Of a DNA stretch of 64,000 nucleotides, positions 1 through 16,415 are shown piece by piece. Source of the DNA: Woeseiaceae bacterium. Lineage in GTDB: Bacteria; Pseudomonadota; Gammaproteobacteria; Steroidobacterales; Woeseiaceae. How positions within the stretch are numbered: position 1 is the stretch's first letter; every line of letters starts with the position of its first letter. The notes under the pieces are model-generated. The model ran no database searches. It saw only the letters and a list, made by a program, of their open reading frames with translations, and was not told the DNA's origin. The stretch covers positions 1-64,000 of the forward strand of contig JAHEFF010000005.1 in assembly GCA_024640315.1 (NCBI GenBank). The letters are read 5' to 3'. The position numbers and the translations under genes were made by a program.

Positions 1-133
1 CCCCTGCGGGCGCCTGCGGCGTCCAAATCGCATGCGATTTGTCGAACTGGAGTCCTCAGCTTCATCCAGACACCCAAAATGAAAAAGGGCCCCCGATGGG
101 GACCCTTTGTCATTTGGCGCGCCCGGAGAGATT
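1..133 (-). repeat. truncated copy of 164-bp tRNA-Arg tail repeat
   Basis: This is an incomplete copy of the repeat unit at 134-297, cut by the window edge. Read on the minus strand it holds a 19-nt copy of the 3' end of tRNA-Arg including CCA (115-133), a terminator-like hairpin (82-109), a spacer, and the structured hairpin module at 1-45. The tail and terminator are nearly identical to the downstream unit. The module stem differs but still pairs (CAAATCGC with GCGATTTG). It cannot make a tRNA, having no 5' half. More units may lie beyond position 1. Confidence 0.85.
82..109 (-). terminator. terminator hairpin in outer tRNA-Arg repeat copy
   Basis: Minus-strand stem of GGG and CCCC blocks around a 3-nt loop, ending CCCTTTTTC. 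It duplicates the hairpin at 246-273 that follows the real tRNA-Arg gene. Confidence 0.6.
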
Positions 134-297
134 GATCAAAACAGCGCCGCCGCTGTTTTGACCCTGCGGGCGCCTGCGGCGTCCAAAACGCTACCGCGTT
201 TTGTCGAACTGGAGTTCTCATCTTCATCCGGACACACAACAAATGAAAAAGGGCCCCCGATGGGGACCCTTTGTCATTTGGCGCGCCCGGAGAGATT
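134..297 (-). repeat. 164-bp tandem repeat unit with tRNA-Arg 3' tail
   Basis: The unit begins just downstream of one 19-nt tRNA tail (115-133) and ends with the corresponding 19 nt of the real tRNA-Arg gene (279-297), giving a 164-bp period. It carries, in plus order, a palindrome (about 136-162), a GC-rich hairpin pair (161-182), a third stem CAAAACGC/GCGTTTTG (184-203), a GTCGAACTGGAG half-site, a spacer and the tRNA terminator. The E. coli tyrT locus is a known precedent: its distal repeats of about 178 bp each carry the last 19 nt of tRNA-Tyr. The structured module itself I do not recognise. Confidence 0.85.
246..273 (-). terminator. intrinsic terminator after tRNA-Arg
   Basis: Just downstream of the tRNA-Arg CCA on the minus strand, GGG and CCCC pair with GGGG and CCC around a short loop and are followed by TTTTTC. 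It is the probable end of the tRNA-Ser/tRNA-Arg transcript. Confidence 0.7.
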
Positions 298-355
298 CGA
301 ACTCCCGACCGCCTGGTTCGTAGCCAGGTACTCTATCCAGCTGAGCTACGGGCGC
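279..355 (-). tRNA. tRNA-Arg (anticodon ACG)
   Basis: The minus strand folds into a 77-nt cloverleaf with the CCA end encoded. The 5' strand GCGCCCG pairs with CGGGCGC, the D-arm contains AGCTCAGCTGG, the anticodon loop is CTACGAA (anticodon ACG), and the T-loop is TTCGAAT. ACG is normally edited to ICG by TadA to read CGU/CGC/CGA. tRNA-Ser(GCT) lies upstream and csrA-alaS beyond it, matching the enterobacterial alaS-csrA-serV-argV neighbourhood. A 19-nt copy of its 3' end lies downstream at 115-133. Confidence 0.97.
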
Positions 356-370
356 ATTGTTTTGTGTCTT

Positions 371-393
371 GCGATCGAAATCGCTTTTTTTTT
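371..393 (+). terminator. possible plus-strand stem-loop with T-tract
   Basis: GCGAT pairs with ATCGC around a 4-nt loop and nine T residues follow on the plus strand. No plus-strand gene is visible upstream, so it may serve no termination role; on the minus strand it sits between the tRNA-Ser tail copy and tRNA-Arg. Confidence 0.3.
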
Positions 394-394
394 G

Positions 395-486
395 TGGCGG
401 AGAGGGAGGGATTGATTCACCACCTGCGGTGGCTCACCCTCCGGGCGCACTTCGTGCGTCCATTCCGGCTCCGCCGGTCTGTCGAA
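395..486 (-). repeat. tRNA-Ser 3' tail copy plus structured module
   Basis: Positions 395-413 repeat exactly the last 19 nt of tRNA-Ser (T-loop to CCA). They adjoin a module at 414-483 with the same architecture as those in the tRNA-Arg repeats: a palindrome (ACCACC with GGTGGT), a CCC/GGG hairpin, GCGCAC/GTGCGC, TCCATTCCGG against CCGGTCTGTCGA, then a T-arm-like GTCGAACCCC. On the minus strand this reads half-site GGGGTTCGA, module, then half-site AATCCCTCC. The module therefore sits at the T-loop break point of a partial tRNA copy. Confidence 0.8.
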
Positions 487-526
487 CCCCATTGTCTAAT
501 TCGAGGATTCGAATTCTAACTTTCTT

Positions 527-567
527 CTACTACTTTTGGGCCCTCTTTGAGGACCCAAAAGTAGTAG
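527..567 (-). terminator. long hairpin directly after tRNA-Ser
   Basis: CTACTACTTTTGGG and CCTC pair with GAGG and CCCAAAAGTAGTAG around a 3-nt loop, about 18 pairs with one mismatch, starting at the base after the tRNA-Ser CCA. No T-tract follows on the minus strand (AAGAAAG). It could be a 3'-processing signal, a leaky terminator or a mobile hairpin. tRNA-Arg lies about 170 bp downstream and could share the transcript. Confidence 0.6.
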
Positions 568-658
568 TGGCGGAGAGGGAGGGATTCGAACCCTCGAAGG
601 GGTATTAGCCCTTACTCCCTTAGCAGGGGAGCGCTTTCGACCACTCAGCCACCTCTCC
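568..658 (-). tRNA. tRNA-Ser (anticodon GCT)
   Basis: A 91-nt class II tRNA on the minus strand. The acceptor GGAGAGG pairs with CCTCTCC, the D-arm contains GGCTGAGTGGTCGA, the anticodon stem CTCCC/GGGAG encloses CTGCTAA (anticodon GCT, reading AGC/AGU), a long variable arm follows, the T-loop is TTCGAAT, and CCA is encoded. It lies between csrA and tRNA-Arg, the conserved position of E. coli serV. Copies of both ends occur nearby: the 3' 19 nt at 395-413 and the 5' about 23 nt at 793-815. Confidence 0.97.
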
Positions 659-747
659 GATTTTCTCAATTTGTTGGCAAAATGGCTTCGTTGAAGATCC
701 TGCCACCAGCGCTCCTTCGCGCTTTGACTCGGCGCGTCCTGCGCCTC

Positions 748-840
748 GCCCTGCGGGCGGCTTCGCCGTCCAAATTCGCTCCCGGCGAATTTGTCGACCA
801 CTCAGCCACCTCTCCGTTTACTCAAATTGTTGTCAAAAAC
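748..840 (-). repeat. structured module plus copy of tRNA-Ser 5' end and leader
   Basis: On the minus strand, 840-793 repeats, with a few changes, the sequence upstream of tRNA-Ser (TTTTGCCAACAAATTGAG becomes TTTGACAACAATTTGAG) and the first 23 nt of the gene up to GGTCGA in the D-loop. At that point it joins the structured module: CAAATTCGC/GCGAATTTG stem, then GGACGGCGAAGCCGCC and CCGCAGGG. The module again starts at a TCGA motif, here in the D-loop instead of the T-loop. No complete tRNA can be formed. Confidence 0.75.
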
Positions 841-912
841 CCACCATCGTCCCCGACGGCGGACGTGCATAGTACTGATGGGATTGGGCGAGGTAAAGCA
901 GGAAATTGACCT

Positions 913-1119
913 TTATTCCGCTTTAGATTCGGGCTCCCCGGCCCCTTCGGTATTCTTCTCGCTCTGAATCCGTTCGTATATTTCTTCGCGGTGCACAGCC
1001 ACGTCCTTCGGCGCATTAATTCCGATGCGGACCTGGTTTCCCTTCACCCCTAAGACCGTGATTGTGACATCGCTCCCAATCATGACGGTCTCACCGGCGC
1101 GTCGCGTAAGTATCAGCAT
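913..1119 (-). CDS. csrA: carbon storage regulator CsrA
   Basis: A 68-residue RNA-binding translational regulator that binds GGA motifs in mRNA leaders and controls carbon flow, motility and biofilm genes. It begins [10 protein letters not shown] with conserved Leu4 and has Arg44 (VHREEI), the RNA-contact residues of the CsrA dimer. Length is near the usual 60-70. It follows alaS on the same strand and precedes tRNA-Ser, the standard gammaproteobacterial order. Its ribosome-binding region contains two GGA triplets (AGGAGTAGGA) just before ATG, as expected if CsrA represses its own translation; that is inferred. Confidence 0.97.
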
Positions 1120-16328: not shown

Positions 16329-16334
16329 TGTTGA

Positions 16335-16404
16335 AAATTGGGGTCAGACCCCGATTCCTCCGAATCTAAGATGAATAACGTCCAAATGGGCTCTGACCCC
16401 ATTT
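16335..16404. repeat. inverted pair of GGGGTCAGACCCC-type repeats
   Basis: AATTGGGGTCAGACCCCGATT (16337 region) and the reverse complement of AAATGGGGTCAGAGCCCATTT face each other about 28 bp apart in the clpB leader. Each is itself partly palindromic. Such REP-like elements are often scattered in gammaproteobacterial genomes. A single related half, CGGGGTCAGAC, occurs in front of mraZ near 57342-57352. Confidence 0.65.
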
Positions 16405-16415
16405 CCATGCGCAAT

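Follow-up and report, generated by a model that had tools for sequence, protein, structure and literature searches.

Why would a tandem repeat beside a tRNA gene carry exactly the last 19 nt of that tRNA? This question is raised by the first 297 positions of the DNA analyzed here (the window, i.e., the whole 64,000-nt stretch of a Woeseiaceae contig), and an earlier note, made from the sequence alone, had proposed either a route that copies tRNA tails downstream or an element that integrates at about position 57/58 of the tRNA. To our knowledge there is no accepted origin for the comparable repeats of the E. coli tyrT locus and their 19-nt tRNA tails. Our best explanation is that the repeats are RtT-type units, in which the 3′ end of a tRNA has been copied locally and a dispersed multi-hairpin element of ~70 bp separates nt 58 from nt 59 of the T-loop.

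The repeat unit at tRNA-Arg

The tRNA genes and repeat units described in the window are all on the minus strand. The intact tRNA-Arg(ACG) gene (279..355; ARAGORN, Rfam tRNA) is followed immediately at its 3′ side by a terminator-like hairpin (240..278, by sequence and fold) and by a 29-nt spacer (211..239), which alignment to its own versus other tRNAs, and its predicted pairing with the tail copy, mark as an inverted and degenerate copy of the 3′ half of tRNA-Arg (GTGTGTCCGGATGAAGATGAGAACTCC). Next come AGTTCGA (204..210), a direct copy of the 5′ side of the T-stem/T-loop through nt 58, then a 71-bp multi-hairpin element of the form C...TCA (133..203; pattern match 163-208), which splits the T-loop between nt 58 and 59, and a tail copy with CCA (115..132), corresponding to tRNA-Arg nt 59-76 and identical to 279-296. 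This element is matched by the covariance model R1, described below, at 130-211 with an E-value of 1.7e-26, the element itself being a member of the R1 training set. The unit then begins again, with a second copy of the terminator (77..114; direct repeat family), a second inverted arm (48..76; GGGTGTCTGGATGAAGCTGAGGACTCC, repeat family D3) and a second element (1..41; pattern match 3-46, R1 match 9-49) that is cut by the contig end; the contig begins at window position 1 within this second module, so that it does not give the number of units. Additional copies are present on contig C64 of the same genome, which is a draft of 85% completeness.

Comparison of positions 70-133 with 234-297 gives a 64-nt block with a 95% match at a spacing of 164 bp, and the last 19 nt of this block (115-133 and 279-297) are identical, for which chance is not an issue. 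The 19-nt identity within a 164-bp repeat claimed in the earlier note is therefore confirmed, with the qualification that 18 nt of the tail copy are unambiguous (115-132) and that the remaining one, an A, also forms the end of the module (TCA|ATC). Homology to tRNA-Arg resumes past the module as AGTTCGA, which makes the tail half of an interrupted T-arm. As that note had stated, the terminator is repeated, but the spacer repeated with it is not neutral, its sequence being that of the tRNA 3′ half, inverted and degenerate.

Units at tRNA-Ser and elsewhere in the genome

The adjoining tRNA-Ser(GCT) gene (568..658, intact; ARAGORN) has units on both sides, neither of which the earlier note had mentioned. 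Its downstream unit (395-567) consists of a terminator-like hairpin (527..567; inverted repeat I1), a spacer (488..526) containing an inverted copy of the tRNA-Ser T-arm (GAATTCGAATCCTCGAA, identified by own-versus-other tRNA alignment), GGGGTTCGA, a 69-bp multi-hairpin element (413..481; pattern match, R1 match 410-489) placed in the tRNA-Ser tail copy at nt 58/59, and this tail copy itself, which comprises the 18 3′-terminal nt of the tRNA (395..412; direct repeat D5, 18/18). Upstream of the intact gene is a partial tRNA-Ser copy (719-819) with an element in its D-loop. Here, a duplicate of the 5′ part of tRNA-Ser (794-819) together with its leader (794..842; repeat D4, sequence) leads into a 69-bp element (725..793; exact junction, R1 match 722-801) inserted after nt 22 (GGTCGA^AAGCGC), and beyond the element a reading of the junction gives AAGCGC (719..724), the six tRNA-Ser nucleotides 3′ of the insertion point. 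The pattern recurs elsewhere in the genome, at tRNA-Arg(TCG), tRNA-Pro(CGG), additional tRNA-Ser genes and sites on contig C64. The congener G009 has the same tRNA-Ser/tRNA-Arg pair without any unit.

We also observed tRNA-Arg 3′ remnants that start in the anticodon stem/loop, one on contig C64 (L008, ~2898-2945) and one in the relative G012 (L044, contig C258, ~1440-1493), both preceded by GGCGCATACG and followed by an RtT-type unit. These remnants resemble an island boundary that has been displaced, the island having integrated in the anticodon loop of tRNA-Arg.

The 3′ ends of tRNA genes are common attachment sites, and genomic islands and tycheposons that target tRNAs duplicate the tRNA 3′ end beside an intact tRNA, as is seen here. 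The tail copies might accordingly be att sites of islands that use the tRNA 3′ end, with the 164-bp unit a minimal island or an att array; tailed copies located ~11 kb apart in the relative G005 and 3 kb apart on C64 would fit, and so would the resemblance of the two remnants to a displaced island boundary. The unit is, however, too small to house an integrase, none was found in the 164-bp units, and the 20 proteins scanned between distant copies are ordinary, with no integrase among them. In addition, it is the hairpin core that sets the break in the window units, and att sites leave unexplained why this core is found in D- and anticodon loops as well. We consider this origin of the tails very improbable.

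A constant break point and exact insertion junctions

The window units belong to a much larger set. Among 153 copies that we tabulated, 31 are downstream units whose right flank agrees with the 18 nt at the 3′ end of the tRNA close by, mostly at 17-18 of 18 positions, and in all of these the break falls at 58/59, so that the tail starts at one constant T-loop nucleotide (one row is offset, solely through an early end of the model match). These units accompany tRNAs for Arg, Ser, Glu, Asp, Gly and Tyr, with Gln and Pro also visible by eye. The earlier note had expected a fixed break point, and this holds across the 31 units, where random fragments of variable length were not seen.

A further 12 of the tabulated copies are of the upstream type. 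Eight copies located beside an intact tRNA gene have exact junctions in the T-loop, in the D-loop or in the anticodon loop of tRNA-Ser(CGA); in each, the insertion is at TCGA^A (once at TTGA^A), zero nucleotides are lost or gained, and the copy matches the adjoining intact gene over 18-74 nt on the left and 6-12 nt on the right. The proposal of an element at about position 57/58 was right, the 71-bp element of tRNA-Arg being placed between T-loop nt 58 and 59. The proposal of a tail copied downstream was incomplete: the tail is not a stand-alone fragment, and its length is set by an element that is also present in D- and anticodon loops and away from tRNAs. In upstream T-loop copies (L046 at 1-280, L148, L120 and L105), we also noted that the 3′ strand of the broken T-arm abuts its own inverted copy, e.g., ATCGTTCacaaggcGGAACGAT.

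The csrA-tRNA-Ser-tRNA-Arg locus often contains tandem tRNA-Arg genes, and the tail and terminator repeat together, as they would in a decayed tandem tRNA-Arg array (compare argVYZQ of E. coli) whose tail was kept by chance or by gene conversion. Decay, however, does not yield a single break point in at least six isotypes, and it leaves both the conserved hairpin core at the break and the arm matched to each tRNA unexplained. A decayed array is contradicted by the constant break point and by the match of the arm to its own tRNA, and we give it next to no credence.

A family of structured, dispersed elements

To describe the element as a family, we built the covariance model R1 from an alignment of 20 copies from the window's own genome and its relatives, leaving out enterobacteria. 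Its consensus contains two helices, with 96.6% of cells paired and two-sided changes at 11 of 12 pairs; this value was reached by none of 500 shuffles, and slid structures did not come close either. R1 identifies 12 copies in the own genome, 20 in G005, 14 in G001 and 10 in G012, with relatives spanning 3-20 copies per genome; the model includes the T-loop flanks and its matches therefore favour tRNA sites, and its E-values are rough owing to a short calibration.

A second pattern, confined to the middle of the module and free of these flanks, matched at least 117 stretches, chiefly in Gamma-, Zeta- and Deltaproteobacteria. Among the 80 loci listed for this pattern, 20 of 85 matches are located within 600 bp of a tRNA gene, every one of them on the same strand, compared with a chance share of ~2% by our own estimate from ~60 tRNA genes in 4 Mb. 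Matches away from tRNA genes are mostly dispersed. The element is 65-81 bp in size and non-coding, and in G005 three elements are arranged in tandem with joints that are exactly TCA|C. No Rfam family matched in the 18 loci with dispersed elements that we searched, and at the gathering cut-off the loci of the own genome returned tRNAs and one riboswitch only. Our searches of open papers returned work on RtT and BIME sequences, without a description of the element.

Two further observations concern copies outside tRNA genes. The flanks of dispersed elements (for example L169, L187 and L135) are often mutually inverted repeats, with a mean of 10.9 pairs versus 7.8 in swapped controls (p=2e-4), as if these elements often sat in the loops of hairpins. 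In four genomes (L126, L158, L197 and L200), an element is located ~400-450 nt downstream of the tmRNA gene and on the same strand; these were left uncounted because they lie outside the tmRNA tail.

The inverted arm and the predicted fold

The spacers of downstream units are related to their own tRNAs. In 26 first units, alignment of the spacer with the reverse-complemented tRNA 3′ end gave a median of 27 for the own tRNA and 18 for other isotypes (p=9.5e-11). Duplexes of arm and tail reached -17.2 kcal/mol for own pairs versus -12.9 kcal/mol across isotypes (p=1e-6), both p-values being optimistic because related units are non-independent. In several units the arm pairs no better with its own tail. 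A first form of the arm test set the own 18-nt tail against shuffled spacers and gave a weak signal, with 6 of 35 exceeding the 95th percentile. Within the arm, GATTCGAAC is the inverted T-loop, frequently read as GATGAGAAC.

Folds predicted for individual sequences have the helix between arm and tail copy closing the hairpin cluster and leaving the CCA end free; for the unit in the window, the prediction pairs 16 of the 18 nucleotides of the tail with the arm. Changes in the arm that are GU-compatible and those that are incompatible occur at too few sites to be separated. Run on a MAFFT alignment of full units, RNAalifold recovered hairpin 1 only, because the isotype-specific arms are not aligned by MAFFT.

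Relationship to the tyrT repeats of E. coli

The earlier note was right to name E. coli tyrT as a parallel, and we find the same architecture there; it was mistaken in calling the structured module unlike tyrT, as the E. coli repeats have a like hairpin module at the corresponding position, together with the same inverted arm. At the K-12 tyrT locus the order is tail, spacer, GGGGAAGGATGAGAAGCTTCGACC, AAGGTTCGA, hairpins with CCCGAAGGG, and AATCC...CCACCACCA, and this is the RtT of Rfam. The window unit has the corresponding series of an inverted arm, GATGAGAA, GTTCGA, hairpins with CCCGNAGGG, AATC and a CCA tail. Thus, tyrT/RttR and the window units share a CCA tail copy, an inverted T-arm with GATGAGAA, GTTCGA ahead of the hairpins, a hairpin with CCCGAAGGG, AATCC past the hairpins and tandem units of 164-178 bp. 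They differ in the tRNAs concerned (tRNA-Arg and tRNA-Ser in the window versus tRNA-Tyr), in the terminator present in each window unit and in the sequences of the hairpins.

The Rfam RtT model (RF00391) gave no match in window positions 1-1000 or in the own genome at E<=10, and we do not file the window units as RF00391 members because its gathering cut-off is not reached. A sequence link is found through intermediate members: the RtT model matches units at tRNA-Ser(GGA) of Serratia (H1w genome, E 1.5e-7), these are matched by R1 too, and R1 run on the E. coli tyrT locus ranks the four rtT units first, at modest E-values of 0.002-0.018. The window repeats are, in that sense, a relative of the known RtT kind, and as both sets of repeats are of the same build, one widespread element may explain both.

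The whole unit could instead be a selected, tRNA-isotype-specific RtT RNA gene that has spread by duplication, with a hairpin core that is not separately mobile. Consistent with this, a conserved fold with a 3′ CCA end is predicted, GATGAGAAC is retained across many isotypes, and E. coli has an annotated RttR RNA whose 3′ end is the CCA of the tail copy. In addition, RtT-family RNAs located upstream of tRNA-Asn and tRNA-Lys were detected on Northern blots in Actinobacillus pleuropneumoniae (PMC4986893). Against it, partial tRNA copies contain the same core in their D- and anticodon loops, the core is also found far from tRNAs, many copies are decayed, and units can be missing altogether, as at the tRNA pair of the congener and in E. 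coli, where 4,680 of 5,426 genomes have a match, at 1-9 places each, and 746 have none at the sensitivity of this search. We regard the RNA-gene reading as rather unlikely.

A proposed mobile element combined with local duplication

At the level of the sequences, our comparisons demonstrate a structured family with exact loop junctions, a fixed break, an inverted arm from its own tRNA and a patchy presence. The mobility of the element we infer. Probably, a mobile palindromic element inserts into the loops of tRNA genes and local duplication spares one tRNA, with the downstream products being RtT-type repeats. Under this explanation, the element would be moved in trans, perhaps as a single-stranded hairpin, by some enzyme, and an insertion would persist only if part of the locus had been duplicated and one tRNA thereby stayed intact. 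The outcome on the downstream side would be a unit of tail, terminator, inverted arm and element, and on the upstream side a unit of leader, tRNA 5′ part and element; downstream units might then multiply through tandem recombination. If transcribed behind the tRNA, a downstream unit is predicted to fold so that a minihelix, resembling an acceptor/T-stem and ending in a 3′ CCA, closes a multi-hairpin junction. By analogy with the annotated E. coli RttR, the unit may be freed by tRNA 3′-end processing; the terminator ahead of each unit is a point against.

A broader proposal, that an unnamed family of mobile multi-hairpin elements extends across Proteobacteria and combines exact insertion at TCGA^A in tRNA loops with local tRNA duplication, with rtT and the window repeats as its footprints, has in our judgement an even chance of being correct. 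What appears to be new, measured against Rfam and the open papers that we searched, is that a dispersed element following an insertion rule of its own, seen across many tRNA families and phyla, determines how long the rtT tail is. A dispersed element that breaks tRNA loops at a single dinucleotide step would account together for the length of the tail, the presence of hairpins and the repeated occurrence with so many families of tRNA. RtT would shift from an enterobacterial curiosity to one case of a widespread class. If so, there is a defined target site with which to seek the enzyme, and stable RNAs ending in CCA are predicted at many tRNA loci.

Comparison with known palindromic elements and their transposases

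In being short, non-coding, palindromic, dispersed, conserved in structure and multicopy, the element resembles REP/BIME sequences and other small palindromic repeats (GTAG and CGTC families, PMC3733652), and rtT has been reported to be similar to a BIME cluster (PMC2965389). It differs from REP/BIME in having several hairpins per element, precise targets in tRNA loops, fewer copies (3-20 per genome) and no adjoining RAYT gene. REP palindromes carry a GTAG tag and are mobilised by a RAYT gene that has copies on either side; neither GTAG nor CGTC was noted at the element ends (GTAG by eye). Y1 transposase genes are present in 11 of 11 genomes, none of them beside an element, and no element was found within the 27 Y1_Tnp loci fetched from these genomes. 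More generally, our search found no transposase, recombinase or reverse transcriptase that uses the element.

Among transposons, IS608 inserts 3′ of a fixed tetranucleotide without target duplication. The element is like the IS200/IS605 family in its hairpin ends, in insertion 3′ of a short fixed tetranucleotide and in the absence of a target duplication, the eight exact junctions all following TCGA or TTGA; this is a likeness of pattern only. Unlike IS200/IS605, it has no transposase gene, is only 65-81 bp in size and has targets that were seen mainly in tRNA loops. In a comparison by eye with integron attC sites (core sites GTTRRRY and RYYYAAC), the half-site GTTCGAC does not fit GTTRRRY.

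Two minor features of the genome were also recorded. In the window at ~16330-16410, an inverted repeat (GGGGTCAGA...TCTGACCCC) resembles the terminal repeats found on either side of Y1 transposase genes in related genomes. On another contig of the same genome (C72; locus L009, 7660-7740), we identified a c-di-GMP-I-GGC riboswitch (RF03167, 68.2 bits).
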